Both the position numbers and the translations under genes were made by a program. A stretch of 64,000 bases of DNA, from NCBI RefSeq assembly GCF_001298105.1, contig NZ_LGJH01000149.1:1-64000 (forward strand). Reading direction: 5' to 3'. The notes beneath the pieces were generated by a model. It did not search any database. It saw nothing but the letters and a program-made list of their open reading frames with translations, and was not told the origin of the DNA. Below are positions 33,819 through 51,264 of this stretch, piece after piece; positions within the stretch are counted from its first letter, which is position 1; every line of letters begins with the position of its first letter. Source of the DNA: Novosphingobium sp. ST904. GTDB taxonomy: Bacteria > Pseudomonadota > Alphaproteobacteria > Sphingomonadales > Sphingomonadaceae.

Positions 33819-33949
33819 TCCTCGCCTTCCTTGCCCTGCATTCGGTTCCAGATCGCGATGGCGCGCTCACGCCAATCGAAGAGTTCGTCGATCGGCAATC
33901 GGGACAGCTCGCTAAGCGGCCAGTGAAAGACGGCCGCGATATCGGCCAT
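33815..33949 (-). CDS. P2 GpE'-like tail protein, short
   Basis: Only 44 residues, starting MADIAAVFHWPLSELSR and containing IDELFDWRERAIAIWNR, the pattern of the small P2 GpE' family. ATG 33949 overlaps the gpE stop (TGATG), and its stop overlaps the tape-measure start. It lies in the -1 frame relative to gpE and can be joined to it by frameshifting at 34012-34018; the fusion would be the second tail-assembly chaperone. Confidence 0.85.
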   Translation of the reverse strand: MADIAAVFHWPLSELSRLPIDELFDWRERAIAIWNRMQGKEGEE

Positions 33950-34299: not shown

Positions 34300-34429
34300 G
34301 TGCGGGGCTCCTGCGTTGCGGTGGATCGGGCGGGGCATCAGGCCGGAGAGGGGGAGAGGTTACCGATCCTCCCCGGCCCACCACCGCGACGGCGCCCCGC
34401 AAAGGACCGCCCGGTGAATCTCGAATGGA

Positions 34430-34939
34430 TCAGCCGGTGAGGATGGCCATGATCTCGGCGTAACGGTCGATGCCGTTCACCAGGAAGACGCCGTTGATCA
34501 TGTCGATCTCCACCTCGACCACGCCGTCCACCTCGCGGCGATAGTACGAGGCCGGGAGCGTGTATTTGTGCTCGGTGGCATCGCCGGCTTTCGCCTTGCC
34601 TTCGTCGATTTCGGAGAAACGGCCGCCGAGGTAGATCTCGACAGCTTGCGCGGCAGTGCCGTCATCGGCGCGATAGGCGCCGACCAGGCGCAGCTGCACA
34701 CCGTCGATAGCCGCGGTGCCGAACATGCGGATCAGCGCGGCAACGTGGCCAGCCATGGTCATCGTGGCTTCCAGAGCCTCAAGCCCCATATCGAGCTTGA
34801 CCGCCCCCAGCATGCCGCCGCCCCGATGATCTTCGGTAGCGATGGCCAGCTTGGGCTGTTCGAATTCCGAGATGACGCCGAGGTAACCCTCGCCATCGAC
34901 GAAACCATTCATGTTCACGAGCTTGCGCGGCAGGCCCAT
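34430..34939 (-). CDS. FII: Major tail tube protein FII
   Basis: 169 residues (MGLPRKLVNMNGFVDGEGYL), with the P2 FII-type core KLDMGLEALEATMTMAGHVA, a beta-hairpin (GVQLRLVGAYRADDGTAAQA) and KYTLPASYYRREVDGVVEVE. It polymerises as the inner tube of the contractile tail. It follows the sheath gene by 37 bp, and a GAAAGG-like ribosome site precedes it. Confidence 0.93.
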   Translation of the reverse strand: MGLPRKLVNMNGFVDGEGYLGVISEFEQPKLAIATEDHRGGGMLGAVKLDMGLEALEATMTMAGHVAALIRMFGTAAIDGVQLRLVGAYRADDGTAAQAVEIYLGGRFSEIDEGKAKAGDATEHKYTLPASYYRREVDGVVEVEIDMINGVFLVNGIDRYAEIMAILTG

Positions 34940-34976
34940 GGCCGAATCCTTTCAGAAAGAGGGGATGGGCTCGGGC

Positions 34977-36134
34977 TCAGACCAACTGGTCGGCGAAGTC
35001 CGAGTAGTAATAGTCCGTGATCTGCAGATCGATGGTAGGGTTCTCCATCGGTGCGCAGGGGGTGTAGCGGAAACGGAAGTTGGGCTTGCCGGCGGCGAGC
35101 TGCGCGGACGAGTTCTTGTCCCGATCGAAAAAGAATTCTGCGCCGACGATCTTCCCGGCGGCTTTGAGCGCGCGGGCTGCGGCGTTCATCTTTTCCAGCA
35201 GGTTCTTGATCAGGCCCACAGTCATGGGCTTGTCCACGAAGGGCTGGATGGTGGTGGCGATCACGTCCTGCAGCGCAAAGCTGGTACGCACGGCGCTTTC
35301 GAAGGCAAAGTCCGGTTCATCATCGCCCGCCGTGGTGCGGTTGCCCCAAGGGCGATAGCCGTCCGTGCGGACGAACGTGGTGACCGGGGCATCATTCAGA
35401 ACGCCGGCATCGGTAGACGAATCCAGCAGATCGAAGTGAACGTCCTTCGTGATCGCCAGCACACCGTCCATCGCCACGTTCGAAATCGTCTTGTGCCATC
35501 CGGTCTCTTCATCGATCCGGGCGCGCAGGCCGAGGACGCGGGCAACGGCATCGCCGCTCCAGTCGTTGGTGTCCGGCCAGAACAGCATCAGCTCGCGCGC
35601 CGAGAAGTTGTCGCGATAGGTGACGGCAGCGGCCACGGTTTCGCCGATCGCGCGGGCATAGGCCATGCCGCGCAGCTTCTTGGCCGCGATGACCAGTTCG
35701 GTGGTGACGGCCTGCGTATCGAGGCCGGGTGCGCCGAGGATGCGAGGAGCGACGCCGAGCAGCGCCTTGGCCGCAAGCAGGGCCTGCATGCCGGTCTTCT
35801 GGCCGGTGGCGGTGGTGGTGCCGATCACGTTGGCGTCGGTTCCCGCCTGATCATCGCCCTCTTCCACGCGGACGACGACGACGATCGGGCTCGACTGGTC
35901 GCCGATAGCCTCAAGCGACCTCTTCAGCGTGCCGAGGCTCCCGGCCTTGCCCGCCGAGATATCGACGCTGGTGACCAGGACCGGAGTGTTGAGAGGGAAG
36001 GCTGCATCGATATCGGCGGCAACGTCCCCGGCGCCGGCCATGCTGGTGGCGATCAGGCCGATCACCGCCATGCTGGCGGGCGAAGCCGAGACGGTGCTGT
36101 CGGACGATTCGGTAATGGTCAGGCCGTGGGTCAT
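34977..36134 (-). CDS. FI: Tail sheath protein FI
   Basis: ATG 36134 (MTHGLTITESSDSTVSASPA) gives 385 residues; the longer frame to 36317 is an Arg/Ser-rich overlap with gpW and is not used. Sheath signatures include IGLIATSMAGAGDVAADIDA near the N-terminus, ILGAPGLDTQAVTTELVIAA, the GYRPWGNRTT turn and a C-terminal domain ending YYYSDFADQLV. It forms the contractile sleeve. Confidence 0.94.
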   Translation of the reverse strand: MTHGLTITESSDSTVSASPASMAVIGLIATSMAGAGDVAADIDAAFPLNTPVLVTSVDISAGKAGSLGTLKRSLEAIGDQSSPIVVVVRVEEGDDQAGTDANVIGTTTATGQKTGMQALLAAKALLGVAPRILGAPGLDTQAVTTELVIAAKKLRGMAYARAIGETVAAAVTYRDNFSARELMLFWPDTNDWSGDAVARVLGLRARIDEETGWHKTISNVAMDGVLAITKDVHFDLLDSSTDAGVLNDAPVTTFVRTDGYRPWGNRTTAGDDEPDFAFESAVRTSFALQDVIATTIQPFVDKPMTVGLIKNLLEKMNAAARALKAAGKIVGAEFFFDRDKNSSAQLAAGKPNFRFRYTPCAPMENPTIDLQITDYYYSDFADQLV

Positions 36135-36144
36135 CAGGGCTTCC

Positions 36145-36495
36145 TCAGCTCGCGATGGGAATGGAAAGGGTGACCTTCGAATTCGGCGCAGCCACATCCG
36201 TGCGCTTGCCCGAAATCGAGATCGTGAGATTGCCCGCCGCGAAGGTGCCCGAAATGTCGACCTTGCTGATGGCGATGCGGGGTTCCCACTGCCGCAGGGC
36301 CACGGCCGTAGCCGCACGCAGCAGCATCACGGTGGCGGCGTTTATGGGACGGTCGATCAGGTCGAACAGCATTGAGCCGAAGTCGCGGCGCATCACCCGG
36401 GTGCCCAGCGGGGTGCAAAGGATCTTGCCGATGGACTGCGCAAGGTGCGCGGTACCGTCCAGGGCTTTTCCGGTCGTGGCGTTCATCCCGATCAT
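36145..36495 (-). CDS. W: Baseplate protein gpW (gp25-like)
   Basis: ATG 36495 gives 116 residues (MIGMNATTGKALDGTAHLAQ); ATG 36486 is possible. It shows the GPW/gp25 fold (SIGKILCTPLGTRVMRRDFG, then EPRIAISKVDISGTFAAGNL). gp25-like proteins start sheath assembly at the baseplate. It lies immediately upstream of FI and is divergent from gpV, whose start is 143 bp away. Confidence 0.9.
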   Translation of the reverse strand: MIGMNATTGKALDGTAHLAQSIGKILCTPLGTRVMRRDFGSMLFDLIDRPINAATVMLLRAATAVALRQWEPRIAISKVDISGTFAAGNLTISISGKRTDVAAPNSKVTLSIPIAS

Positions 36496-36637
36496 GGGAA
36501 GCACCAAGCCCGGTCGCGGGCGCGAAAACCAGAGGCCGCCGGGGTAGAGGGCAGCGTTACCTGCCGCCCCCCGCGCTTGTCGGCGCTCGGCGGGGTAATC
36601 CTGCCCTTCCCGCCCCATCACAAGGCACAGCGCACCG

Positions 36638-37198
36638 ATGAAAGACCAGGAAGACATCCCCGCCGACGTGTCGGAGCTGATCCGTCTGGGCACGATCGCC
36701 AGCGTCACGCTGGATCCGCCGCGCTGCACGGTGGACTATGGCGACGAGGAAGATGGAGAAGGCGCTGCCGTGACGCCGCCGATTCGCTGGCTGATGCCCC
36801 GCGCAGGCGACACGCAGGTGTGGTCCCCGCCAACGGTAGGCGAACAGGTCGTGCTGCTGGTGCCCGACGGACAGATCGCGGCGGCCGTGGCATTGCTTGG
36901 CCTGACGCAAGATGCGTTCCCTCCCGGATGGTCCAGCCTGACGGAAGGGATGAAGTTCAAGGACGGCGCGCGGATCTCGTATGACCCGGAAGGGCACGCC
37001 CTGCTTGCGGAGCTGCCGGCCGGCGCGACGGCTGCGATCATAGCCACGGGAGGGATCAGGATCACGGGCGCAGTGACTATCGAGGGCACGGTGACAGTGA
37101 CCGGCGACGTGGTGGCGGATGGCATCAGCCTGAAGGACCATCGGCACAAGGACGTTCAGGCGGGCACTGCAGTGAGCGGACCGCCAAAAACCGCGTAA
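36638..37198 (+). CDS. V: Baseplate assembly protein gpV (spike), inverted orientation
   Basis: 186 residues: an N-terminal OB-like domain (IRLGTIASVTLDPPRCTVDY, RWLMPRAGDTQVWSPPTVGE), a triple-stranded beta-helix region (ITGAVTIEGTVTVTGDVVAD) and an apex with DHRHKDV, whose His residues can hold the iron of the membrane-piercing tip. In P2, V, W, J and I share a strand; here V is on the opposite strand from all other tail genes, beside a cargo gene. Confidence 0.88.
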   Translation: MKDQEDIPADVSELIRLGTIASVTLDPPRCTVDYGDEEDGEGAAVTPPIRWLMPRAGDTQVWSPPTVGEQVVLLVPDGQIAAAVALLGLTQDAFPPGWSSLTEGMKFKDGARISYDPEGHALLAELPAGATAAIIATGGIRITGAVTIEGTVTVTGDVVADGISLKDHRHKDVQAGTAVSGPPKTA

Positions 37199-37321
37199 GA
37201 CACCTAATTACCAGTATTTTTTATAAGTTTCCAAATTTCCTTCTTATAATCAAAATTGGTAATTGATTTAAATCCCCCCGGAGCACTTTATAAAAAGATA
37301 ATATATCAGGGGATCATTGTG

Positions 37322-38398
37322 ATGGAGAGACTGCCAGCTATCGCTGCCTGCCTTATGGCCGCCACGCTATCAACCTCCTGCACCACGCCTAACCCCGGAG
37401 CTAAAGGAGGAGGAAAGAATTATCTGGAAACCGTAAGTACGGCAGATGAGTTGATGGCGCGCCTCGCCATGCGCGCGGCGACAAAATTTAACGGAGATCG
37501 ACCAGGGTCGCCCGACTTTCAGGTCATCGTAACTGGCAACGCATATCCCATTGGAACGCTTATCCGACGGGGGACATCGATTCCCGTGGATTACAATGCA
37601 TGTCAGATTGCGGAGCCACCGAAAGTCTCCTCGCCCAATATCTTTCCCGACTACCTTTTGATGCAGAAGACCGGGTTCAATTTTGGCCTTGATAGCAACG
37701 CCGTTGCCAAGGTTGCCTCTGCGGGTGTGGATTTTAGCAATACCGATAATAGCACTTTAACATTCAGCGGCACACAGACCGGCTTTCTGTCAGATAACGA
37801 TCTAAAACGCCTAATGTCCTCAAAAGAATGTCGCGACGCAATTTCTTCGACAGATGCGTGGCTAGTAAGAGGCTACATAGAAGGAAAAAGAACATTTGAA
37901 CTCAAGAAAGAGTCCAACAAAGAAGTGAAAATCGGATTCAATAAGATAGGTTCGTTTGATTTAAATTTTGGATCAGGCAACGCATCATTAAGTTTTACTG
38001 ACGAAGAGCCAACTCAGTTCCTACAAGTAGTATCACAGCTGACTATCGATCAGAGCGGAACCATACAAAGTGCCATTCCGTCTCCCGGACCTAGTGCCAG
38101 CCAAGCTGGAAAAATCTACATCCAACGCGACAAAGCGGACACCTCCGGCAACGGAACTGCTGTTCGAGCTGCTCTGGGTGCTTTGCCCTCGCAGGTAGCG
38201 CAGGGCATCGAAGCAATTGATTCTCAGAAAATGCCAACATTGGCACAGGTAAGATATTTTAACGTCGCTGACGAAGGACTGGCTCAGCAGGCACTTACAA
38301 TACTTAAGCTGACATACTCCAACGCGATCATGAAGCGCGTCCCTTTGCCATCACCTTCGGGGCAGCTTGAAATTTGGCTCCCCAGAGTCGGGCAATAG
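37322..38398 (+). CDS. AT-rich cargo gene: putative secreted lipoprotein
   Basis: ATG 37322 gives 358 residues: a signal peptide (ERLPAIAACLMAATLSTSC) with a possible lipid-attachment Cys, then a polar region (SAGVDFSNTDNSTLTFSGTQ; FNKIGSFDLNFGSGNASLSF) and a C-terminal domain (KIYIQRDKADTSG, VRYFNVADEGLAQQALTILK, GQLEIWLPR) that resembles LytR_C/SPOR-like domains of envelope proteins. That last match is inference. Base composition is clearly AT-richer than the flanking tail genes, and the strand is opposite to the late genes, so it is probably an acquired 'moron'. Function is unknown. Confidence 0.65.
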   Translation: MERLPAIAACLMAATLSTSCTTPNPGAKGGGKNYLETVSTADELMARLAMRAATKFNGDRPGSPDFQVIVTGNAYPIGTLIRRGTSIPVDYNACQIAEPPKVSSPNIFPDYLLMQKTGFNFGLDSNAVAKVASAGVDFSNTDNSTLTFSGTQTGFLSDNDLKRLMSSKECRDAISSTDAWLVRGYIEGKRTFELKKESNKEVKIGFNKIGSFDLNFGSGNASLSFTDEEPTQFLQVVSQLTIDQSGTIQSAIPSPGPSASQAGKIYIQRDKADTSGNGTAVRAALGALPSQVAQGIEAIDSQKMPTLAQVRYFNVADEGLAQQALTILKLTYSNAIMKRVPLPSPSGQLEIWLPRVGQ

Positions 38399-38418
38399 CG
38401 TACAAACTAAATCAAGCT

Positions 38419-38997
38419 TCAGAGTCGGCCCTCCCCCAATGCCACTACGGCAGCTATCAGCGCATCAAGCTGCATCGCCTGTTCTGCCGCGATCAATCGT
38501 TCGCTTGGGCCGAGGCATTCCGCAGGGGCGCCAGCCAGTCGTATGTCGGGCGCCTGAGCAGTTCCGCCGGGGGAAGCGGGTAGGCCGGGCACTGCGATGC
38601 CTGCGCTCGCACTGCCAGCGGGGCTTCCGGCTTTGGCGCCGTCGAGCAGGCGCTGATAGCGAGCGCGCAAAGCGGCAAGGCGCTGCGCATAATCCTTCGA
38701 AGCGGCATCGTTGATCTCCTGCTGGCGCGCCATTTCGCGCGCGATCCGTTCGGCATCGAGCCGCGCCGCCTCTGCCTGGGCCGCGCGATAATCGTCCTTC
38801 GTCCTCTGGTGGGCAGTCTTCTCGGCCGCCGCCTTCTGGTTCGCCGCGTCGCGCTCTGCCGTCAGCTGCCCGCATTCGGCCCACAAAGCGATTGCGGCGA
38901 TGCCAAGGGCGATCACCCCGCGATGCCGCCAGATCGCGCCCCATGCCCACGAGAGGACAGATTTCGCGATAGCGGCGAGAGGCAGCGCCCCCATCAC
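38419..38997 (-). CDS. i-spanin Rz-like protein
   Basis: 192 residues: an N-terminal membrane helix (RGVIALGIAAIALWAECGQL), a long periplasmic coiled coil (RDAANQKAAAEKTAHQRTKD, ARLDAERIAREMARQQEIND) and a Gly/Pro-rich C-terminus. This is the layout of the inner-membrane spanin Rz, which together with Rz1 fuses the membranes in lysis. It overlaps the lysozyme stop by 4 bp (ATGA) and contains Rz1 in another frame. Confidence 0.82.
   Translation of the reverse strand: MMGALPLAAIAKSVLSWAWGAIWRHRGVIALGIAAIALWAECGQLTAERDAANQKAAAEKTAHQRTKDDYRAAQAEAARLDAERIAREMARQQEINDAASKDYAQRLAALRARYQRLLDGAKAGSPAGSASAGIAVPGLPASPGGTAQAPDIRLAGAPAECLGPSERLIAAEQAMQLDALIAAVVALGEGRL
38493..38708 (-). CDS. o-spanin Rz1-like lipoprotein embedded in Rz
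   Basis: Within the Rz gene another frame encodes a lipoprotein: RIMRSALPLCALAISACSTA has a signal peptide with lipobox ISAC, followed by a Pro-rich mature part (APKPEAPLAVRA, AYPLPPAELLRRPTYDW). Starts at 38708 (71 residues) or 38690 (65 residues) are likely; the frame opens at 38756. Full nesting of Rz1 in Rz is known from lambda-type and P2-type phages. Confidence 0.8.
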   Translation of the reverse strand: MPLRRIMRSALPLCALAISACSTAPKPEAPLAVRAQASQCPAYPLPPAELLRRPTYDWLAPLRNASAQAND

Positions 38998-39470
38998 GCG
39001 GCGGCCTGATAGAGCGCGGCCTCATCGGCGCGGCGGCGGCGCAGGCCTTCCAGCGGCTTGCCGTCGTTGTTGATCCACTTGCCGAACTCGGCCGCTGCCC
39101 CGGCATGCTTCCCGGCGACGTGCAGCTTCGTCAGCGTGGCCTTGAAGATGGCCCCGGTGTTGTAGTGGAACGAGACCAGTGCATCGAACTGGTTGGGCGT
39201 GGTCGGGGCGGAACCGATGGCCTTGGCGACCTCGTTCACATAGCGCACGATTTCGCGCTCGAACCGCGCATCGCACTGCGCCTGTGTCCAGACGGTGCCC
39301 TTGGCGATGTCCGGCCCGGTCGATCCCCAACCGATCGTCCAGGGCTTGCCATCCTTGCTGCCGGGGTCGGGATAGGCTTCGAAGCGGCCATCGGCGCGCT
39401 TTTTTGCGCAGCCTTCCCACTTGTGGATCAGGGCCTTGCCCTTCGGGCCGAGGGTGCGTGCGTCAGTCAT
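38994..39470 (-). CDS. Phage lysozyme (T4-type muramidase, GH24)
   Basis: 158 residues. The GH24 catalytic triad is visible: Glu19 in HKWEGC, Asp35 in AYPDPG and Thr51 in WTIGWGST; FDALVSFHYNTGA is the conserved helix. There is no signal peptide or SAR helix, so a holin is required for export. It starts within the end of the small membrane protein gene. Confidence 0.93.
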   Translation of the reverse strand: MTDARTLGPKGKALIHKWEGCAKKRADGRFEAYPDPGSKDGKPWTIGWGSTGPDIAKGTVWTQAQCDARFEREIVRYVNEVAKAIGSAPTTPNQFDALVSFHYNTGAIFKATLTKLHVAGKHAGAAAEFGKWINNDGKPLEGLRRRRADEAALYQAAA

Positions 39471-39636
39471 GGCGCTTTTCCTTTCGGTGCGCGAGGTAGT
39501 CGAGGAGGTGGGAGATCAGCGGCCGGGCCAGCGGATCGAGCGCGGTCATGCGAAGGTGGAGCCGCAGCACCCGCCAGTATCCGAAGCCGGACGCGGCAAG
39601 CGAAAGCGTGACCACGAGGGCGAACGGGTCGTTCAC
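39463..39636 (-). CDS. Small membrane protein in the lysis cassette (holin candidate)
   Basis: GTG 39636, overlapping the upstream stop (GTGA), gives 57 residues with one hydrophobic segment (FALVVTLSLAASGFGYW) and a basic C-terminus (HLLDYLAHRKEKRHD). It overlaps the lysozyme start by 8 bp. The context suggests a holin or an antiholin-like partner. Confidence 0.6.
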   Translation of the reverse strand: MNDPFALVVTLSLAASGFGYWRVLRLHLRMTALDPLARPLISHLLDYLAHRKEKRHD

Positions 39637-39995
39637 GGCGTGGCATCCTTGGGCGCGCCTTCGTCCATGCCCACACGCTTGCGAACGATCGTCTGCAGCG
39701 CATCGAGGAAGAAGGCGAAGCCGAGGGCGCCCAGCACCATGGAGAGCAGGACCACGCCCTCCATCGGCCAATCGCGCAGCCGCCCGATGACGACGGACAG
39801 GGTGGCGAAAGCTGGCAGGGCCGACAGTTCGGAGAACACCAGCCAGCGGCGCTTGCGCTGCCAGAGGCCGAACGCCACCGGGTCCGATGGCGGTTCGGGC
39901 GCGACGCCGAACAGCATCCAGCCAAGCCGCGCGCCGCACAGGGCCATCCCGCCGAACAGCGACATCAGCCAGAGCAGGAAATCGTCCAGCTTCAT
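39633..39995 (-). CDS. Membrane protein in the lysis cassette (holin candidate)
   Basis: 120 residues with three hydrophobic segments (about 5-30 FLLWLMSLFGGMALCGARLG; 50-70 LVFSELSALPAFATLSVVIG; 78-98 VVLLSMVLGALGFAFFLDAL) and a charged C-terminus. This topology and the position upstream of the lysozyme fit a class I-type holin. No specific holin family is recognised. Confidence 0.65.
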   Translation of the reverse strand: MKLDDFLLWLMSLFGGMALCGARLGWMLFGVAPEPPSDPVAFGLWQRKRRWLVFSELSALPAFATLSVVIGRLRDWPMEGVVLLSMVLGALGFAFFLDALQTIVRKRVGMDEGAPKDATP

Positions 39996-39998
39996 GGC

Positions 39999-40943
39999 TC
40001 AGCTTCCGATCTGCGGGTTGGCGGCCCTGATGGCGGCGCGCACTGCGGCGCGGGTGGCGGCATCGATCGTGGGCAGGATCGCGAAAGTGGAGAACAGGCA
40101 GTTCGCCTTCCCCGATCCGCCGTTGCCGCCATAGAGCATGTCCATGGTCACCTGATTGACCAGCGCGCCCGGCGCCGCCGAAAAGCCCGCGACCGTGGCG
40201 ATGGCCACGCCGTCCATCAGCAGGGTGGCGTTGTCGTTCAGGTAGTCCACCGCGATTTCAAGGATGCCCCATTTGCGGTTGGCCAGCGCCACCGGCGCGG
40301 CTTCGGTCAGTGTCCAGCTGGTCCCGCCGCCCAAGCGCCGGATCACGGCATAGTAGGTCGAGCCATCGGCGGTGATGCCCAGCTGGAGGAAGTCCTTGGC
40401 GTTGCCGGTGCGCAGGGCGAACATCGTGCGGTTCGCGCCCATCGCGGTCTTGGGCTTCACGGCCAGCATGATCGTGCATTCGTTGGTCAGCGCCAGCGCG
40501 CCGGGCAGCGCGCCGGTCAGCACCGAGGCGGCCTGCCCGTTGATCGTCATGTCGATGATCGGTCGCTGCGACACGGTGGCCGCGCCGGGCTGGTTGGCCT
40601 CGGTCGCCTGATCCAGCCTCAGCGCATAGGGCGCCAGGCTGTACATGTTCTTCATGTAGACGCTCCCCGCCGCGCGCGGATTGCACAGCCACGGATCGAC
40701 GAAGGCATAGCAGCTGGCCAGCGCATCCCCGGCTGCGGCGGCGGCATCGAGCGCCATCTGCATCTGCGCGGACATGTCCATGTTGCTGGCATCGCCGCGC
40801 CAGCCAGCGTCCAGCGCCAGGCGCACGCCGGTCTTGAGCGAGGCCTTGTAATTGGCGATTTCCCAGCGGGTGAGGCCGACCTTTTCCAAGGCGCCCGCCA
40901 CGGGCATCTGGCGGTTGCGGATGATCTTGGACAGGACGCTCAT
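39999..40943 (-). CDS. Tail-fibre-associated protein with LamG-like domain
   Basis: ATG 40943 (MSVLSKIIRNRQMPVAGALE) gives 314 residues, overlapping the tailspike stop (ATGA). The first half is helical (LTRWEIANYKASLKTGVRLA). The second half looks like a concanavalin/LamG jelly-roll (NECTIMLAVKPKTAMGANRT; LEIAVDYLNDNATLLMDGVA), a fold used for glycan binding. It is probably an additional adhesin working with the sialidase-like spike upstream. Confidence 0.65.
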   Translation of the reverse strand: MSVLSKIIRNRQMPVAGALEKVGLTRWEIANYKASLKTGVRLALDAGWRGDASNMDMSAQMQMALDAAAAAGDALASCYAFVDPWLCNPRAAGSVYMKNMYSLAPYALRLDQATEANQPGAATVSQRPIIDMTINGQAASVLTGALPGALALTNECTIMLAVKPKTAMGANRTMFALRTGNAKDFLQLGITADGSTYYAVIRRLGGGTSWTLTEAAPVALANRKWGILEIAVDYLNDNATLLMDGVAIATVAGFSAAPGALVNQVTMDMLYGGNGGSGKANCLFSTFAILPTIDAATRAAVRAAIRAANPQIGS

Positions 40944-42661
40944 GCAAGGAGGCTCCGGACGGTATGGAAGGAGAGGAAGAAGGCGTGGTGCATGCCGGCG
41001 TTGCCGTTGCTGAACAGGCCGCGGGCTTCCTTGAAGTCGAGGATGCGATCGCCGAGCTGGCCCAGATCGCTGTACCCGGTGTTGCGGGCGAGATCGGAGT
41101 TCGTGTCGTTGCGGTTGAGCACATCCCGGTACGCCACGTCGGACGGCCGGTAGAGCGGCCCATTGTTCAGCCATGAGCCCTGCGCACCCAACCGGTAGCT
41201 GATCGACAGGGTGAGGTTGTAGCGAAGCTCGGACGTGGTTTCGTCCACGCGCGGCGCCTGGTTGTTGGACACGATCACGCGCGGCACGCCGTCCCCGCCG
41301 TCGAAGGTTAGGATCGCCCCGGCCGCCACGATGTCCGGCAGCGATGGCTCGGGGTAATGATCCAGCATCTGCGTGCCTTCGGCGTTGTAGATGATCGTGT
41401 AGCGCAGGCCGTCCGCATAGCGGGAATTGACCATGAGGCGCCCGGCATCCTCGGGAAGCTGGCAGATCGACTGTTCGGACGTGGGGATGCCCGCCAGCGC
41501 GGCATCGGCAGAAGGCATCGTGAACGAGCGCTTCCACGTGCCGTGGGGCGTCTCGCTGGTGTCGGCGCGGTCCAGCGTGGCAAGGCTCAGGCCCTGATTG
41601 CCGCGAATGGGATAGAACAGCCGCCCTTCGCGGGTAGCGATGCCGTGCGCCGGGCAGAACAGGTTGTCCTGCCCCAGCGTCAGCATCTGCTTGGCGTTTT
41701 CGCCGCTGATCGGCAGGGCCAGCGGAGTATCCGCCTGTCCCTTCCACGTCAGCAGATTGTCATCGCTGTAGATGCCCACGATCTGCTGCGGGATGCGGCG
41801 GCCCGCCATCAGCCACCAGACGTCCGCCACCGGGTCATAAACCGGCGCCGGATCGGCGAAGCCATAGCCAAGGGTCGAAACCTCGTCCGCTTCGCGCATC
41901 AGTTCGAACTGCGGGTTGGTGGCCGAAAGGGTTTCCAGCATCGTCAGGAAGCTGGCGGTGGGATCGGTGCGGATCGTCTTTTCGATCCAGCGCACCTGTT
42001 CGAAGGTGAGCACGCGCGCGATCACGCGGCGGGTGGCGGCATCGCTGCTGGCGCCCACGCGGCCTTCGCCGACGAACAGCACCTTGTCCTTGCCCACCGC
42101 GAAGGCGGGGATGCGCACATAGCTGGTGGTGCCCCGGATGGAGGCGGGCCACTGCGCGTTGGACGAGAACAGGATCGGGAATTCGCGCGAACGGTAGAGC
42201 AGGCCCTCGATCATGTCATTGTAGCGGCGCTGGTCTTCGGTGGTACCGTTCGGCAGCGTCACCTTGCGGTGAATGTCCTCGCCGTTCGGCCCCACGACCA
42301 TGCCCAGCGCGTCTTCACAGAAGAACCGGGGGCTACCGTCCGGCAGGGCGGCATATGCGCTGTCGTTCAGCCGGTTATCGACGGCCGCGAACCTGGTGAC
42401 GATGCCGTCCAGTTCGGTCGTCAGGTTGCGGTTGCCCACCAGAACCATTTCGCCCTTGGCGTTCACCGCCAGATGGACTTCGCCCAGCGGCCCTTCGATC
42501 AGGGACTGGAGTGCGGAATCGAAGGTGGCCGCCGCATCGAGCTGGCGCGAGCCGAAGACCGTCGCGAGCGGTGCCTTCACCATCGCGCCGTCCTTCACGA
42601 ACGGGACGAGTTCGGTGCCGGTCACGGTGTCGGCATTGGGAAGCAGGGAAATCTTGGTCAT
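40940..42661 (-). CDS. Tailspike with GH33-like sialidase beta-propeller
   Basis: 573 residues. The N-terminus (TKISLLPNADTVTGTELVPF) is a typical virion-attachment domain. The body matches the exo-sialidase plan: RIP motif VRIPAFAVGKDKVLFVGEGR (Arg183), an Asp at 207, an Asp-box-like YSDDNLLTW (298-306), Glu396 in EQSICQLPEDAGRLMVNSRY, Arg420, Arg480 in ELRYNLTLSISYR, and Tyr530 in GYSDLGQLGDRIL with Glu545. These correspond to the arginine triad, acid/base Asp, and Tyr/Glu nucleophile pair. It probably cleaves sialic acid or another nonulosonic acid on the host surface; the substrate is inferred. Confidence 0.78.
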   Translation of the reverse strand: MTKISLLPNADTVTGTELVPFVKDGAMVKAPLATVFGSRQLDAAATFDSALQSLIEGPLGEVHLAVNAKGEMVLVGNRNLTTELDGIVTRFAAVDNRLNDSAYAALPDGSPRFFCEDALGMVVGPNGEDIHRKVTLPNGTTEDQRRYNDMIEGLLYRSREFPILFSSNAQWPASIRGTTSYVRIPAFAVGKDKVLFVGEGRVGASSDAATRRVIARVLTFEQVRWIEKTIRTDPTASFLTMLETLSATNPQFELMREADEVSTLGYGFADPAPVYDPVADVWWLMAGRRIPQQIVGIYSDDNLLTWKGQADTPLALPISGENAKQMLTLGQDNLFCPAHGIATREGRLFYPIRGNQGLSLATLDRADTSETPHGTWKRSFTMPSADAALAGIPTSEQSICQLPEDAGRLMVNSRYADGLRYTIIYNAEGTQMLDHYPEPSLPDIVAAGAILTFDGGDGVPRVIVSNNQAPRVDETTSELRYNLTLSISYRLGAQGSWLNNGPLYRPSDVAYRDVLNRNDTNSDLARNTGYSDLGQLGDRILDFKEARGLFSNGNAGMHHAFFLSFHTVRSLLA

Positions 42662-42673
42662 CGTATCGCTCTC

Positions 42674-43633
42674 TCAGACGCCGATCGTGCGGATCCACAC
42701 GGTGATCGTGCGGTTGTCGGCATTCCAAAGGCGGATGCCGGTGGGCGGGGCGCCAACGATGGCGGTGATGCCGGTGTTGTCCTGGACGTCGGTGATGCCG
42801 CCCGCCGTGCTGACGGCGAGCGATGGATTGACCCATTCGGTGTGGGCCACCGGCAGATTGAAGGTGACGTAAGTGTCCTGGGGGATATCGACTTTCCCCC
42901 AAGTCACCTTCTTGCCCGAGGCGTAGACCTCATAGCCGCCGTTCTCGATCAGGCTTCTTTCGACGATCCGGTCATATGCAGAGCCGTGGAAGCCATCGAG
43001 AAGATCGGCATCGAGCGCGGACCCGGCACCATGGACGGTCAGCAGCTTCGCGAGCACATCGGCGGCGGTGTAGGCATCGGCATCGAGCGGCGTGAAGCCC
43101 AGCCAATCGAGCAGCGATGCCTTGGCGACGGCGGCCGTGAGCGCACGCAGTTCGTCCAGCCCGGCCTTGGCTTCGGCCAGCGTGGCCAGTTCCACCACGC
43201 CGCGCATTTCCGTGGTGGCGGGCGGGTTCGTGAACAGGGCGTTCCCGTATTCGATGTTCGCGGCAACGTCGCTGCCGAACGAGATATCGAAAGCCAGCAG
43301 GGCGAAGGCCAGCGCCGCCTTGCTCAGGATCACGTCGGCGCCGGTATAGATCGCAAAGAGCACGCCGTCCGACATGAACAGGCCAAGCCCGGTGGCGGAC
43401 CACACATCGGCGGAATAGTCGTAGGCGGTGAGGTGCGTGATGTTTGCCGCCGCCGCGAGGCCGGATGTCACATCGATCCGCTTGAATTCGCCCGGCAGCA
43501 CGGTGAGCGTGGGGGCATAGTCGAACGGGGTGGCGGTGAGGCCAAGGTGGGACAGGACCACCTTGTCGGAGCCGGCGGCGCCCTGCACGGCGGCAAGGCC
43601 CGCGTCAGTCAGCTTGAGGGCAAGCGAGGCCAT
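42674..43633 (-). CDS. H: Phage tail fibre protein gpH-like
   Basis: ATG 43633 gives 319 residues. The N-terminus (ASLALKLTDAGLAAVQGAAG) is the standard P2 gpH attachment domain (Phage_tail_fib). Further on are the repeat-linker motif TNPPATTEMRGVVELATLAE and LDADLLDGFHGSAYDR, common in fibre shafts, and a beta C-terminal tip. It overlaps the gpI stop (TGATG). It probably joins the baseplate to the spike. Confidence 0.85.
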   Translation of the reverse strand: MASLALKLTDAGLAAVQGAAGSDKVVLSHLGLTATPFDYAPTLTVLPGEFKRIDVTSGLAAAANITHLTAYDYSADVWSATGLGLFMSDGVLFAIYTGADVILSKAALAFALLAFDISFGSDVAANIEYGNALFTNPPATTEMRGVVELATLAEAKAGLDELRALTAAVAKASLLDWLGFTPLDADAYTAADVLAKLLTVHGAGSALDADLLDGFHGSAYDRIVERSLIENGGYEVYASGKKVTWGKVDIPQDTYVTFNLPVAHTEWVNPSLAVSTAGGITDVQDNTGITAIVGAPPTGIRLWNADNRTITVWIRTIGV

Positions 43634-44265
43634 CAATGGGTCTCCAGATAATCGAGCCCGTCCTCGGTCAGAACGGGCTCACCGATTTCGGTTTGAAGGA
43701 CGAGCGACCAGTCGCGGCTTGCATCGTGCTGCGCCTGGTAGTCGGCGCGGTGCGTGCCCCCGGCGAGCCCGCCAGCGGCCATGAACAGAGTGGCCTGTGC
43801 TTCCAGCGACTGGACGAAATCGAAGTGGGAGCGCAGCGGCTTGGCGGCGGCCACATCGCGGATGATGGATTCTGCCGTCTCGGCGGTCAGGAACTCGGCG
43901 CCGATCTCCAGCGCCGGGGCGCGCACTTCGAAGGTATGGGGAACGCCCACCGGGTCCATCTGCCACCATTCGACAACCGACAGCAGCGGATGGAAGCGGG
44001 CGAGCACTTCCTCAACAGCGGCGCGCGTGCCCTTGCGTTTGTGGAAGGCCACGGCCCCCGCCACTGCTGCACGCTTTTCGGCGACGGTCCACGTCGTATC
44101 CCAATGGCTGATCGCCAGTTCCCATCCAAGGAAAGGCAAGACGTCTGCCTGACAGGCAAACGGGTTCTTGAGCGCGGCAACCCTGGACAGATCGACGCGG
44201 ACCAGAAGCGCCTGTTCAAGGGCGATTTCGGCGGCAGTGGAGTTGGGCGGAAGCAGGCTGGTCAC
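43633..44265 (-). CDS. I: Baseplate tail protein gpI
   Basis: 210 residues (SLLPPNSTAAEIALEQALLV), with the family core PFACQADVLPFLGWELAISH, WDTTWTVAEKRAAVAGAVAF and HKRKGTRAAVEEVLARF, clear Phage_tail_I features. It overlaps gpJ by 4 bp. The C-terminal portion (TLFMAAGGLAGGTHRADYQA) is longer than in P2 and may contact the fibre. Confidence 0.9.
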   Translation of the reverse strand: MTSLLPPNSTAAEIALEQALLVRVDLSRVAALKNPFACQADVLPFLGWELAISHWDTTWTVAEKRAAVAGAVAFHKRKGTRAAVEEVLARFHPLLSVVEWWQMDPVGVPHTFEVRAPALEIGAEFLTAETAESIIRDVAAAKPLRSHFDFVQSLEAQATLFMAAGGLAGGTHRADYQAQHDASRDWSLVLQTEIGEPVLTEDGLDYLETH

Positions 44266-45268
44266 CAGACAGTGCCCCCGATGGAGACATCGATCGTGTC
44301 CGCGTCGGCGAACTGCGACAGGTCTATAGGACCGTCTACGGCCGGGGAGATCAGTTCGACGCGGGCGACATTGCCCACGAACAGTGCCGCCGTGTGCGCT
44401 GACGGTTCGATATCGCGGCCGAGCCGCCGGGCTTCCTTCAGGTAGGCATCGAGCTTCGCCAGGGCCGTTTCAAGGATCAAGTCCTGGTCAGGCCCGGCGA
44501 AGGGATAGATGCGGGCTTCGATATCGTAGCCGATCCGTTCTGCCGGGCGGACCCGCACGCGATCGGTCATCGGGCGGACGTCGCCCTGAAGCGCGCTGTC
44601 CACAGCGGCCACGACTGCGGCCGGGGGCACGCCCGTGCCGCTGTTCGACATCACGGTGATGTTCACATCGCCCGGCCAGTCTGCCGCGTCCAGCGCGGCG
44701 GTCATGTCCGCTACGAGAGCATCGGATGCGGCATGGGCGGCAAGCACGTCCAGCACCAGCGACCGGATATCCTCCGGCTCCGGGGATTCGGCCGAAACGT
44801 CTGCGACATCACCATGCGCCGACATGGCGTGGAATTTGTAGGCCAGCTCGGGACCGGCAACGGAGAAGCGGTGCGGCGCAAGCTGGATACGCAGCTTGTA
44901 GGGCGCATCCTTTTCCATGACGGCGGCCGCCGTGTCCGTGGCCGGGGTGACGACCAGGCGCGGGCAGTCCACGATCGCGCGAGATGATCGAGGTTCGCCC
45001 CGGTGGCAAAGGCCAGCAGCAGCGCGCGGCCGGTATCGGCGAACGACTGGACAAGGACCGTTTCGTCGTAGCTGTCCGACTCCAGCAGGATCATTGCCGG
45101 ATCGCTTTCCACCAGCGCGGAGAATTCGGGCATCAACGAGATCAGGCGGGCAAGCTTGCCCGCGAGCCGCGTTTCATAGTCCGGCGTATCGACCGATACC
45201 GGCGGGGGCAGCGCGGAAAGGTCCACCGAGGGCGAGGAGGCGATTGATCCGACCATGGCCCATGGCAT
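44262..45268 (-). CDS. J: Baseplate protein gpJ, apparent frameshift
   Basis: The N-terminal part starts at 45268 (or ATG 45256, MVGSIASSPSVDLSALPPPV) and runs through LLLAFATGANLDHLAR, where the frame is lost near 44975. One extra base restores IVDCPRLVVTPATDTAAAVM and the conserved APHRFSVAGPELAYKFHAMS, continuing to 44262. Both halves are clear Baseplate_J (gp6-like) sequence, together about 335 residues. gpJ is essential for baseplate assembly, so the prophage would be defective if the lesion is real. Confidence 0.82.
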
Positions 45269-45363
45269 GGTCCAGCTTCACACGCGCGCGGTAGGGTATG
45301 TGGGGGTAGAGGCTGGCGCTACCTAGCGGCCCGGGCGAGACAACATGCGCCGACCGGCTTGCG

Positions 45364-45382
45364 GATCGGGGCTCCCCCGATC
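45364..45382. repeat. Perfect 8-bp hairpin after brnA
   Basis: GATCGGGG, a 3-nt loop and CCCCGATC lie 14 bp beyond the brnA stop and about 95 bp before the gpJ start. It may end the toxin-antitoxin transcript; no T-run follows. Confidence 0.35.
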
Positions 45383-45395
45383 ACCGCGTGAAAAC

Positions 45396-45668
45396 TCAGT
45401 GTTTGGCGACTATTTCGCGCAGGGCGTCATCGATGCGCGATTGCCAGCCCGGCCCGCCCTTCTTGAAAAAGTCCACAACCTCGGGCGAAAGCCGGATCGT
45501 GGTGCTGACCTTCGTCGGAGCCTTCTGCGCTCCGCGTGCGCGCATGGTCTTCGCCAGATGCGGGAACGCTTCGGCGAAGGGTACGGCCTTGGCGATATCC
45601 GCTTCCGTCCATTCCGGGTTGTCGCTGACCGCGTCCATGTCGGCCTGTGTGATCTTGGGTTCGGTCAT
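45396..45668 (-). CDS. brnA: BrnA-type antitoxin
   Basis: 90 residues with an acidic N-terminus (TEPKITQADMDAVSDNPEWT) and a C-terminal ribbon-helix-helix (KVSTTIRLSPEVVDFFKKGG, PGWQSRIDDALREIVAKH), the BrnA arrangement. BrnA neutralises BrnT and represses the operon by binding its promoter. It overlaps the brnT stop by 4 bp. It is placed between tail genes S and J. Confidence 0.9.
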   Translation of the reverse strand: MTEPKITQADMDAVSDNPEWTEADIAKAVPFAEAFPHLAKTMRARGAQKAPTKVSTTIRLSPEVVDFFKKGGPGWQSRIDDALREIVAKH

Positions 45669-45910
45669 GACATCAGCCTCCGTTCGTTCTTGCTGGCGGG
45701 GCGGGCCGAAATGATCGAGATGCCTTCGGTGCCCAGCGTGGCGAAGATCACCGCGATAACGCCGTTCATGCGCCCGATGGCAGCGAAGCGGCCATCCTTG
45801 GCTTCGCGAACCAGCGCCGAAGCGAAGAAATCCTCGCCAATGTCCGCGAAGTCAATGCCGTGCTTGGCAAGGTTCACGATGCGCTTCGGTTCGTCCCATA
45901 CGATGATCAT
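45665..45910 (-). CDS. brnT: BrnT-type toxin (ribonuclease)
   Basis: From ATG 45910 (MIIVWDEPKRIVNLAKHGID) it gives 81 residues; starts at 45937 or 45964 would be upstream of the -10 box and are less likely. It has the RelE-like BrnT features: KHGIDFADIGEDFF, DGRFAAIGRMNGVIAVIF and the C-terminal ISIISARPASKNERR with basic catalytic residues. The toxin-first order is typical for brnTA. It probably stabilises the prophage or acts in phage defence. Confidence 0.88.
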   Translation of the reverse strand: MIIVWDEPKRIVNLAKHGIDFADIGEDFFASALVREAKDGRFAAIGRMNGVIAVIFATLGTEGISIISARPASKNERRLMS

Positions 45911-45916
45911 GGGTTT

Positions 45917-45958
45917 TTTGTAGTTACGATTTGACATGGCGTCAAGCACTAATCGTAA
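45917..45958 (-). promoter_or_regulatory. brnTA promoter with inverted-repeat operator
   Basis: -35 TTGACG (45945-45940), 17-bp spacer and -10 TACAAA (45922-45917). TTACGATT (45924-45931) and AATCGTAA (45951-45958) are an exact inverted repeat around the -35, with an inner TGAC...GTCA pair (45932-45944). This fits autorepression by BrnA. Transcription would start close to the brnT ATG at 45910, so a leaderless message is possible. Confidence 0.65.
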
Positions 45959-45970
45959 ATACAATTTGAA

Positions 45971-46450
45971 CTATTTACCCGGTTCGATCAGGGATTCGGC
46001 GACTTCCATCACGATGCGCTCATCGCTTGGCGCGAAGCCGAGCAGGCGGCGGATGGGGTAGCGGGCGCGGATCGGGGAATGGTTCGGGCGGTAGCCAATC
46101 GTCGTGGTTTCGCCGAACTGGCTGACCGATGCGACGCGGTCCACGTTGCCGGATGCGGGCCGGATTTCGACTCCGCCCTCGTCCGCGTCGATTTTCCAGT
46201 TTCGGAGGCGGCGCAGGCCCTTGAACATCTTGCCGGTCTGGCGCCTGCGAAGGCGCCCGCGCCTGTCCTTGCGGGGCTTGCGCGGCTCCATGGGGCGGCC
46301 GTCCGGCTCCACGTTTTCGGCAATGCGCTTCACGTTCGCGAGGCGTAGCGCCTGTCCCAGTTTGAGGGAGCCGCGCCGCATCTGTGCAGGTTCCAGCCCC
46401 GCAAGGATGCGGCCAAACCACTCGCTAAACTGGTTCAGGTCTTCGGCCAC
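45971..46450 (-). CDS. S: Tail completion protein gpS
   Basis: 159 residues of the virion morphogenesis (Phage_tail_S) family: WFGRILAGLEPAQMRRGSLK, then the basic RRRQTGKMFKGLRRLRNWKI and VSQFGETTTIGYRPNHSPI. It acts with gpR in finishing the tail. It begins 4 bp after gpR. Confidence 0.88.
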   Translation of the reverse strand: MAEDLNQFSEWFGRILAGLEPAQMRRGSLKLGQALRLANVKRIAENVEPDGRPMEPRKPRKDRRGRLRRRQTGKMFKGLRRLRNWKIDADEGGVEIRPASGNVDRVASVSQFGETTTIGYRPNHSPIRARYPIRRLLGFAPSDERIVMEVAESLIEPGK

Positions 46451-46454
46451 GGGC

Positions 46455-46943
46455 TCAATCGTCCCAAGGTGGCAGGTCTTCGGTCGCCTCGAAGCCGGTC
46501 AGCGCCGGGGGCGGCTGCGTGCCAGTGATGCTGAGCGGATCCGTGAACAGCGGATCGGGCTCGCCGCGATAATCAAGCGCAACGCTGCCATCGGGATTGG
46601 GCGTAGCGACCACCACCTGATCAAGCTGAAGTTGGATCAGAACGTCGGCAGTCTTGTTGTCGAGGATATCAGCGTCGAAGCTGAAACCTTCGGCGTTCGG
46701 CACCATCAGTTCCGGCTGATTGGTGCGCAGCCACATGAACACGGCCAGCGCCAGGACGGCAAGATCGGTGGCCATCTCCACGACCAGGACGTTGAGCTGG
46801 AATGCAAAGCAGAGGCCGCGATTCTCGGTCAGCGTGGATTTCGCGGAGCCGCGCTCGATCCAGATGCGGATGCGATCAGGATCGCGCTTCAGTTCGGGCA
46901 GCGCGCCATAGATGGCGTCGCGCAGGGTTTCGATCTTGCGCAT
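46455..46943 (-). CDS. R: Tail completion protein gpR
   Basis: 162 residues (MRKIETLRDAIYGALPELKR), with the P2 gpR-type pattern RIWIERGSAKSTLTENRGLC and FQLNVLVVEMATDLAVLALA. It starts 3 bp after gpX. The Asp-rich tail (GFEATEDLPPWDD) is longer than in P2. Confidence 0.85.
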   Translation of the reverse strand: MRKIETLRDAIYGALPELKRDPDRIRIWIERGSAKSTLTENRGLCFAFQLNVLVVEMATDLAVLALAVFMWLRTNQPELMVPNAEGFSFDADILDNKTADVLIQLQLDQVVVATPNPDGSVALDYRGEPDPLFTDPLSITGTQPPPALTGFEATEDLPPWDD

Positions 46944-46946
46944 GGG

Positions 46947-47162
46947 TCAGTCCCAGAGCTTGACGGTTTCGAGGATGGCGGGCGCGGCGGTGGCGAGGTC
47001 CGGCAAGGTGACCACGGTTCCGGCGGGCAGGCGCGTGCCGAGCGCGGCAAGGCCGGGATTGAGCGCCAGCACCTGTTCGGTAACGCCGCGCGTGCGGCCC
47101 AGCTCGCGCCAGCAAATGGCGTCCACGGTGTCACCGTCGAGCGCGGTGGCGGTCGTGGTCAT
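46947..47162 (-). CDS. X: Tail protein gpX (LysM-like)
   Basis: 71 residues with the LysM-like fold of P2 gpX: ALDGDTVDAICWRELGRTRG, VLALNPGLAALGTRLPAGTV and a final hydrophobic strand. Members of this family attach the tail tube or baseplate to other parts. It overlaps the upstream small gene (GTGA-type overlap) by 4 bp. Confidence 0.88.
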   Translation of the reverse strand: MTTTATALDGDTVDAICWRELGRTRGVTEQVLALNPGLAALGTRLPAGTVVTLPDLATAAPAILETVKLWD

Positions 47163-47359
47163 TGCTGTGCCGGGTGATTGATCGCGCGGCGAGCCGGGCG
47201 ACCGAGGATCATGTACTGCAGATCATGGACCTTGTTACAGAATTCGGCGCGATCCCGCACATGCTCTTCGGGTAGTTTTAGAAACGCGTTCCAGACTTCG
47301 CCAATCATCGTGACCAGAGCGTGTTCCTCATCGGTCAAACGTTCATCGCCGGACATCAT
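47159..47359 (-). CDS. Small acidic phage protein between gpL and gpX
   Basis: 66 residues, helical and acidic (DERLTDEEHALVTMIGEVWN, ELPEEHVRDRAEFCN-like segment). No family is recognised. Overlap with gpX and a 1-bp gap to its upstream neighbour place it in the late operon. Confidence 0.55.
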   Translation of the reverse strand: MMSGDERLTDEEHALVTMIGEVWNAFLKLPEEHVRDRAEFCNKVHDLQYMILGRPARRAINHPAQQ

Positions 47360-47360
47360 G

Positions 47361-47576
47361 TCAAAACCTGCTAATAAATTCGATCAGGGCCGCTTCGATC
47401 GCATAACCATCGGAGCCGTCTGGCGTGTCCGTGACCTCAAGACTGATCTGCTTGCCGTTGCGCATGGAGATGCACAGAGAGGGGCCGCCAATTGCCATCG
47501 GCGCGACCCACCAGTGCGAGATTTCCTCGATCACGATGGCTTTCGAGCCGACGCGATAAATACGCATGCTCTTCAT
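47361..47576 (-). CDS. Small beta-rich phage protein after gpL
   Basis: 71 residues (MRIYRVGSKAIVIEEISHWW, LCISMRNGKQISLEVTDTPD) with a strand-rich pattern resembling single-domain proteins that bind other proteins; no family is identified. The start overlaps the gpL stop (TGATG). Confidence 0.55.
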   Translation of the reverse strand: MKSMRIYRVGSKAIVIEEISHWWVAPMAIGGPSLCISMRNGKQISLEVTDTPDGSDGYAIEAALIEFISRF

Positions 47577-48070
47577 CAGATAAGTTCCACCCGGTTGCGC
47601 GGCACCGGCTTGTCGGCGCCGATGCTGCGGAGGTCCGCCACGGCGCCGAGCGCCAGCGCTCGCTGATCGTCAGCCGAGGTATCCTTCTCGGCCGCGCGGT
47701 CGAGGCCGTCGTCAGTGGCCGAGATATCGCGGTACTGGTCGTACAGCTCGGCCCCGGCGAAATAGCGCACCACGCGCTCCCACAGGACCTCCGCGATGTT
47801 GCGGTCGTTGATCGTGGTGGTGGTGACGGCGGCAAGCGAGGCGGCGCCCTCGGCGACGCGGGCGCTGCGCCATTGCGACAATTCGCGGAAGGCATGCAGC
47901 ATCCCGCCTTCGATTGCGGCGGTGAGCCGGGGTTCGGGCACGGTGCCATCGCCAATGCGGATCACGTCGCGCACGGCGGCGAGCTTGACCGGGGGGAACC
48001 AGCCATCGGCCACAACCTGCGCATCAGGCGAATCGGCTTCTGGGGCGGGAAAGGCGATCAGGCCGGTCAT
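47576..48070 (-). CDS. L: Head completion protein gpL
   Basis: 164 residues. The core VKLAAVRDVIRIGDGTVPEP and IAEVLWERVVRYFAGAELYD fits the P2 gpL family, which closes the head after DNA packaging. It sits between M and X, as in P2. Confidence 0.88.
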   Translation of the reverse strand: MTGLIAFPAPEADSPDAQVVADGWFPPVKLAAVRDVIRIGDGTVPEPRLTAAIEGGMLHAFRELSQWRSARVAEGAASLAAVTTTTINDRNIAEVLWERVVRYFAGAELYDQYRDISATDDGLDRAAEKDTSADDQRALALGAVADLRSIGADKPVPRNRVELI

Positions 48071-48189
48071 GGGCGATCCTTTGGCGAGGGCGAGAGCGGT
48101 TTTCGGGGGGTGGGGACGGTTTGGTTCGGCATGGCCGCAAGCGGATCCCGATCAGACCGTCCGCCCCCCGAGCGCCGTGGGGCGGTCCG

Positions 48190-48948: not shown

Positions 48949-49109
48949 GCGGGGCTCTCCTATGATCTGGGGAAATGGCCGCATATCCGGCGGCGGCCGC
49001 CGCAGACAGGAAGGTGCGAAACCATCTGCCCCCGGCCTATGTTCTGGGCTCTTGCGGATGCCGGCCCGGATGCCAGCATTCCGCCATCAATGCCCTCTCC
49101 GGGGTGGTA

Positions 49110-50231: not shown

Positions 50232-50280
50232 GGTCTATGGTCCTGTTTAGAAAATGCGGGGCGGCGGTGGATGGATCGGC

Positions 50281-51117: not shown

Positions 51118-51264
51118 GGTTCGGGCTCCGCGTTCGGTCCTGATCTGGGCGATTACGGCGCCCGGCGTTCGATGAGGACTTGAAGCCCGACCGCCTGCAT
51201 TCTCGCAACGCGCGGGCGCGGTGACGCTGGGCTTTACCCGCGCAGGCCATGCCCGAGGGGGGCG

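Follow-up and report, generated by a model that had tools for sequence, protein, structure and literature searches.

Does the tailspike of a prophage of Novosphingobium sp. ST904 carry an exo-acting sialidase of the GH33 type, and if so, which sugar of its host might be the target? The gene in question is found in a stretch of 64,000 nt (contig NZ_LGJH01000149.1, positions 1 to 64,000; the whole stretch is hereafter called the window), and its product, designated here P0001, had been put forward in a preliminary description as a spike with a full GH33-like active site. The open reading frame (ORF) is real, lies on the minus strand exactly at 40940-42661, and contains all seven of the residues named in that description. 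Judged by sequence comparison, P0001 is a prophage tail adhesin, the C-terminal ~410 residues of which represent a highly divergent GH33-type (exo-sialidase) propeller, and the whole protein probably acts, attached to the virion, as an exo-hydrolase of nonulosonic acids by which the coat of the host is bound and trimmed.

40940..42661, minus strand: tailspike gene, ORF of 573 amino acids (P0001)
40976..42205, minus strand: predicted GH33-type propeller, residues 153-562 (span aligned by hhalign at low stringency; default span 179-493)

Relationship of the spike to GH33 sialidases

P0001 matched no Pfam family up to an E-value of 1 (BNR_2, PF13088, included) and nothing in PHROGs, and no PDB sequence was detected by phmmer at E-values up to 10. 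The comparison of P0001 alone with a profile of 69 GH33 sequences by hhalign resulted in a probability of 97.7, a score of 97.8 and a P-value of 1.3e-12, the latter being the value for one comparison. Against the same profile the best of 200 shuffled versions of P0001 scored 24.6 and nine other proteins of the window at most 23.9, while P0001 with its eight candidate residues masked still reached 77.2. With an earlier profile of seven GH33 sequences P0001 had scored 66.0, the best of 200 shuffles 24.0 and reversed P0001 19.0. On this profile evidence P0001 is homologous to the GH33 catalytic domain, which, together with the conserved catalytic set described below, bears out the exo-sialidase-type relationship proposed initially.

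The GH33 sequences comprised seven from plasmid records, eight viral-contig genes found by pattern (six of them used) and 80 genome-contig loci, 24 of which were left out as they had no RIP-type motif at the expected place. The remaining 56 loci and the six viral genes made up 62 sequences, which together with the seven plasmid ones constituted the 69-sequence profile; removal of 26 of the 62 as redundant yielded the set of 36 enzymes used for alignment. A further alignment, A6, contained 24 of these 36 enzymes, cut nine positions after the catalytic Tyr, the subset having been picked so that Y530 and D207 of P0001 align (8 of 40 subsets passed). Among solved sequences the profile of A6 matched 1eur best. 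The putative active-site residues of P0001 are listed below with their sequence contexts where distinctive, their 1eur indices in the printed alignment, the corresponding residue numbers (index plus an offset of 42) and the number of the 36 enzymes that agree.

42113..42115, minus strand: R183, putative triad arginine 1, in the RIP motif (YVRIPAF); 1eur index 26, residue 68; R in 36/36
42041..42043, minus strand: D207, putative acid/base aspartate; index 50, residue 92; D in 35/36, fewer in other alignments
41474..41476, minus strand: E396, putative partner of the nucleophile; index 218, residue 260; E in 36/36
41420..41422, minus strand: R414, putative triad arginine 2 (LMVNSR); index 234, residue 276; R in 36/36
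41222..41224, minus strand: R480, putative triad arginine 3 (LRYNLTLSIS); index 300, residue 342; R in 36/36
41072..41074, minus strand: Y530, putative nucleophile tyrosine (GYSDL); index 328 in alignment A6, residue 370
41027..41029, minus strand: E545, possible last active-site Glu, uncertain, with S551 as its rival

The counts for R183, E396, R414 and R480, as well as that for D207, did not depend on which of the four MAFFT modes was used (L-INS-i, --auto, E-INS-i or G-INS-i). D207 was the less stable of these positions, meeting D in 25/36 enzymes when trimmed sequences were aligned under E-INS-i and in 12 to 19 of 20 across four listed subsets of 20 sequences. We take residues 68, 92, 260, 276, 342 and 370 to be catalytic in the sialidase of Micromonospora viridifaciens, the enzyme presumably represented by 1eur and 1eut; the titles of PDB entries of the M. 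viridifaciens enzyme (2ber, 1w8o entries) refer to Y370, to its nucleophilic tyrosine and to its active-site Asp. By these alignments the arginine triad R183/R414/R480, the acid/base D207 and the Tyr/Glu pair Y530/E396 are present in P0001. The active-site set suggested in the preliminary description thus holds for the contexts and columns of R183, D207, E396, R480 and Y530; its choice of R420 does not, as the second triad arginine is, by alignment, R414 and not R420 (R in 35/36 enzymes, K in one), and E545 is not secured.

The C-terminal end of the propeller is aligned less uniformly. Y530 meets Y in 36/36 enzymes under E-INS-i and G-INS-i, Y511 is placed in the Tyr column instead by L-INS-i and --auto and also when all 36 trimmed sequences are aligned together, and HMMER weakly prefers the YSDL at 530 (-0.1 bits). 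Since A6 was chosen to align both Y530 and D207, neither A6 nor the structural model described below provides an independent test of these two residues. Y530 fell on Tyr in 19 of 60 random subsets, and there the column of S551 was mostly E in 12 and that of E545 in one; hhalign with only the C-terminal piece favours E545, though with very little confidence.

Out of 30 columns invariant in the 24 enzymes of A6, 21 are kept by P0001. The nine lost ones (218, 220, 222, 370, 371, 373, 425, 427 and 490) are all S, D or G of Asp boxes, and no catalytic position is among them (the last Glu falls outside A6). A single stretch of P0001 fits a loose Asp-box pattern, the remaining boxes being degenerate:

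41744..41767, minus strand: SDDNLLTW, residues 299-306, candidate Asp box

Such a pattern, with structural boxes lost and catalytic residues kept, may aid in finding more spikes of this kind. Compared with 1eur/1eut, the nearest solved sequence by profile, P0001 shares the columns of the triad arginines, the acid/base Asp, the Glu and the Tyr, as well as the fold of its model, and differs in its low identity to these GH33 exo-sialidases (18-24%), the lack of a Pfam BNR match, the eroded Asp boxes, ~30 extra residues near 230-262 and its place in a phage tail module.

An AlphaFold2 (AF2) model obtained with 24 GH33 sequences in the alignment had a mean predicted local distance difference test score (pLDDT) of 60.4 and a predicted template modelling (TM) score of 0.69. 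In a Foldseek search sialidases came out on top (7qxo, E-value 3.7e-14, TM-scores 0.51/0.43), and VIA-align superposed the model on human Neu2 with a Z-score of 30.6 and a root-mean-square deviation of 3.0 over 313 residues. All of the best 50 VIA-align rows were sialidases (cited Z-scores ranging from 28.7 to 30.6, that of the Aspergillus Kdnase being 28.7), including 4j9t, which is titled a designed metalloprotein and matches the GH33 profile at 398 bits. The model, in the alignment of which GH33 sequences were present, is consistent with a GH33-type propeller fold and has sialidases as its nearest folds.

Throughout all searches, whole-protein copies of P0001 were found only in the genome of the window itself and in L001, L002 and G926. 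Phages and plasmids were searched by tblastn, viral and genome contigs were scanned, and 61, 396, 385 and 195 genomes in overlapping sets were covered; exact short peptides served as probes in the scan of genome contigs and in the first three scans of viral contigs, so that distant relatives would escape these scans. In viral contigs the RIP...EGR pattern at the spacing of P0001 gave eight stretches (two own copies and six chance matches, no relative), and the YGFxDP pattern gave 12 (two own copies and ten non-relatives). The L001 spike is identical to P0001, the one of G926 differs from it at 8 residues, and the L002 gene shows 45 synonymous and 10 nonsynonymous differences (ratio of nonsynonymous to synonymous rates, dN/dS, 0.073). 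The spike gene is under purifying selection, and no catalytic residue is altered in L002 or G926 (three distinct copies of the spike compared).

Tail module and prophage

42524..42661, minus strand: presumed virion-attachment tag, residues 1-46 (MTKISLLPNADTVTGTELVPFVKDG...), resembling the starts of other ORFs
42674..43636, minus strand: tail fibre directly upstream of the spike (phrog_15547, function unknown, E 8e-60; phrog_8443, tail fiber protein, E 4.6e-43)
40005..40937, minus strand: downstream partner of 311 amino acids, weakly concanavalin-lectin-like (Laminin_G_3, Pfam E 0.0017, 19.0 bits, below the cut-off of 27.6)
39999..44037: shared cassette of the lectin-like gene, spike, fibre and part of Tail_P2_I, 94.2% identical to G926
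17915..58283: prophage of ~40.4 kb with a 38-bp direct repeat at its two ends (17915-17952 and 58246-58283), of which the right one lies within a tRNA-Val gene
17988-19058: integrase, inside the left end of the prophage

The N-terminal 46 residues of P0001 share 40-45% identity with the starts of three long ORFs in other genomes (L004, L007 and L008), the remainder of which has no match to P0001. The L008 ORF contains a pectate-lyase-like match of 26.0 bits, which is under the cut-off of 27, and the L004 and L007 ORFs, both cut by the ends of their loci, gave no Pfam match. This tag would attach P0001 to the virion, in keeping with the standard attachment N-terminus assumed at the outset. The three ORFs belong to nine weak matches to P0001; the other six (L005, L006 and L009-L012) were taken as chance after inspection of the tblastn alignments.

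The spike sits in a contractile-tail, P2-like module encoding Tail_P2_I, baseplate J, sheath and tape-measure proteins, and the place of its gene in the tail operon fits a phage tailspike. The myovirus setting ascribed to it earlier is correct as regards this neighbourhood, but the element is a prophage with 38-bp repeats. In G926, a genome of the same species, nothing else of the window apart from the cassette was matched in the 19.9 kb taken there; L002 matches over 6.2 kb at 90.6% identity and in one other short segment. As the cassette is common to prophages with different flanks, the fibre, the spike and the lectin-like gene appear to travel together. Outside the prophage, the window also harbours mercury resistance genes at 2581-5300, including a MerA-type reductase, and mer genes of sphingomonad plasmids, the only match that bears on the sphingomonad assignment, correspond to 3302-5299 at 78.7%.

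Sialidase-type tail proteins of other phages

The rarity of exo-type sialidases among phages, as supposed in the preliminary description, was overstated. Searches with GH33 proteins in named phages by tblastn detected 21 records with the first query and 3 with the second (E-value limit 0.1 for both), and 1 with the third (limit 0.001). Among the 20 matches listed for the first query, 15 covered 33% (E 3e-3 to 4e-3) and came from Salmonella and Escherichia phages, in which the protein is annotated as tailspike, tail fiber, hypothetical or, in three cases, exo-alpha-sialidase. One of these phages is the Kuttervirus Sajous1, a Salmonella phage, the gp139 of which ('Exo-alpha-sialidase and tail protein', 744 amino acids) was found in virions by mass spectrometry with 113 spectra, according to the portion of the source consulted (PMC10892097). 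Like P0001, gp139 bears a GH33-like domain (hhalign score 139.0) and keeps the three triad arginines, the Glu and the Tyr in three alignment modes; it shows no pairwise similarity to P0001 (score 22.7). The 'Neuraminidase (sialidase)' of Acinetobacter phage MD-2021a (584 amino acids) resembles P0001 in size and in its GH33-like domain (118.1) and keeps the Glu, the second and third arginines and the Tyr, and the first arginine in two of three modes; it differs in having an RMI motif there and no pairwise similarity (18.0).

A GH33-like gene is also borne by prophage Fels-1, PHROG 35653 (tail fiber protein) matches 20/38 members of set A5 and not P0001, and further phage tail proteins of similar fold are found in BFVD, e.g. 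the spike of Pectobacterium phage phiA41 (E 5.0e-7). Standalone GH33 genes on IMG/VR contigs (L068, L069, L071, L072, L073, L074, L075 and L078) likewise place a sialidase on a phage contig, but these are ordinary GH33 sequences (hhalign 444-507) without a tag of the P0001 type; on the two contigs whose neighbouring genes were scanned, in L068 the gene is preceded by tape measure and minor tail protein genes, and in L074 it has a tail fiber PHROG match as a neighbour and is followed by an endolysin gene. As to the literature, the excerpts consulted report that, in DepoScope, 119 of 984 phage proteins having a depolymerase fold are n-bladed propellers (PMC11326577) and two Alteromonas-phage tail fibres tabulated with the Phyre2 match 'hydrolase, sialidase' (PMC8228385). 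No GH33-type spike of an alphaproteobacterial phage was seen among the literature titles listed, which is no proof of absence. By sequence, exo-sialidase-type phage tail proteins are already known, if little described, and P0001 is a separate, very divergent lineage that is added to the few of them; its prophage resides in a host with nonulosonic-acid genes of its own, and spikes of this sort can escape domain libraries.

The K1-phage endosialidases (GH58), which act on a sialic-acid polymer, resemble P0001 in being phage tailspikes with a propeller. For the K1F enzyme the excerpt available lists H350, R549, E581, R596 and R647 as key residues, along with a stalk and a chaperone domain (PMC12632334), and it is by this description that P0001, the chain of which ends at the propeller, would be set apart from K1F. 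The PDB sequence search, in which P0001 had no GH58 match at E-values up to 10, missed GH33 as well.

Nonulosonic-acid genes of the host and the function of the spike

The search of the host genome for nonulosonic-acid synthesis, a step already foreseen, was successful. A cluster on contig C90 encodes Wzc, a glycosyltransferase, a CMP-nonulosonate synthetase fused to a KdsC-type phosphatase, NeuB (294 amino acids) and a flippase, and is, by its gene content, a capsule-type locus with nonulosonic-acid genes. The counterpart of this cluster in G926 shares 99.3% identity with it over 18.9 kb and has a polysaccharide-export gene as its first; a GT-B-like ORF of the locus (L049, 11698-12968) is split into two frames here and is one ORF of 423 amino acids there.

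The phosphatase half of the fused protein scored 108.3 and 106.9 bits with KdsC models, as against 83.9 with the model of the phosphatase acting on the 9-phosphate of 2-keto-3-deoxynononic acid (Kdn); the transferase half scored 134.1 with PseF and at most 70.2 with cytidylyltransferases of 3-deoxy-D-manno-octulosonic acid (Kdo). The equivalog cut-offs of NeuB and PseI were not reached by the host NeuB, nor that of PseF by the synthetase. A route through a 9-phosphate, such as that of Kdn outlined in the excerpt consulted (PMC6200933), would accord with the phosphatase beside the synthetase. Because the phosphatase leans to KdsC and the NeuB and synthetase scores are below their cut-offs, these scores single out no particular acid. 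A weak Epimerase_2 match in the locus, with 24.7 bits against a cut-off of 30.6 when taken from G926, may represent a NeuC-type epimerase. PF02719 genes occur in the host genome, with two matches on C90, some 16-17 kb from NeuB; given these genes, a route of the legionaminic or pseudaminic acid type may be conceivable. Of 195 genomes of the genus, 20 have NeuB; the two spike-bearing genomes are among these (thus 18/193 of the others), and in a wider set NeuB is common (34/98 relatives).

If P0001 is the hydrolase proposed here, R183, R414 and R480 would bind the carboxylate of a terminal nonulosonic acid, and the ketosidic bond would be hydrolysed by the retaining sialidase mechanism, with Y530 and its partner E396 as the nucleophile and D207 as the acid/base. 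The N-terminal tag would fix the spike to the tail beside the fibre, and the lectin-like protein of 311 amino acids encoded behind it may help in binding. The target would most likely be a nonulosonic acid on the capsule or exopolysaccharide of the host itself, which the phage could use as its first receptor, trimming the coat to reach the cell. We infer in this proposal the attachment to the virion, the activity and its exo mode, the identity of the sugar, its place at the surface and the role in adsorption. If active, P0001 might serve as a tool enzyme for nonulosonic acids besides N-acetylneuraminic acid and as a direct handle on the sugar worn by the host. A narrower version is offered as a tentative conjecture: the spike might be a receptor-destroying exo-hydrolase for a non-sialic nonulosonate made via the NeuB and the fused synthetase/phosphatase of C90 (Kdn being one candidate), borne by an exchangeable tail cassette and of an origin separate from that of the sialidase spikes of enterobacterial and Acinetobacter phages.

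Several observations weigh against the proposed hydrolase. None of 14 single GH33 sequences matched P0001 significantly (best score 26.8), hence the GH33 signal requires a profile. From two near-identical sequences AF2 returned a useless model (pLDDT 29.8), that is, the model free of GH33 sequences failed; the fold match of the second model speaks for consistency and proves nothing independently, as GH33 sequences were in its alignment. In that second model 174/431 residues have a pLDDT of at least 70 and 162/431 are below 50, the latter at model positions 1-35, 80-124, 168-190, 224-228, 363-383 and 400-431 (142 is to be added for P0001 numbering). Among 23 further columns conserved in at least 90% of the enzymes, P0001 keeps 12; Asp-box positions as well as other conserved glycines, prolines and hydrophobic residues are among the eleven that it lacks. 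A counterpart of the last active-site Glu may be absent, the alignments being split between E545 and S551. The association of NeuB with the spike counts as one event and is suggestive only, since both genomes belong to one species. The spike may also have some other sugar or host as its target.

Some of these points would suit a catalytically silent descendant of GH33, the pocket of which binds a nonulosonic acid as a receptor without cleaving it: S551 may replace the last Glu, the Asp boxes are eroded and the protein is very divergent. We nevertheless regard such a protein as unlikely, for the retention of the other catalytic residues along with the loss of structural boxes is the opposite of catalytic decay, and the three distinct copies of the spike show no catalytic change. 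Quite improbable, too, is a hydrolase for another ulosonic acid, Kdo-like or some other 2-keto-3-deoxy acid, rather than a nine-carbon one. GH33 members with such specificities are known, the pocket chemistry would be the same and the phosphatase half of the host protein is nearer to KdsC than to the Kdn-9-phosphatase; against this, the transferase half prefers PseF to the Kdo cytidylyltransferases, and the host NeuB is of the nonulosonate type. An endosialidase of the K1-phage kind can hardly be right, since the likeness of two propeller-bearing tailspikes (PMC12632334, in part) is offset by the tyrosine of P0001 at the retaining-type place and by a chain that ends with the propeller, so that the beta-helix stalk and the chaperone at the C-terminus which the same excerpt gives for K1F would not fit in.

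Apart from the C90 locus, a UDP-N-acetylglucosamine 2-epimerase gene is found beside a UDP-sugar dehydrogenase gene at 13533-15963 of the window, ~2 kb outside the left attachment repeat. The full-length Epimerase_2 match in the window was considered as NeuC and rejected; because a nucleotide-sugar dehydrogenase adjoins it, the epimerase is likely to belong to a pair of the N-acetylmannosaminuronic acid type.

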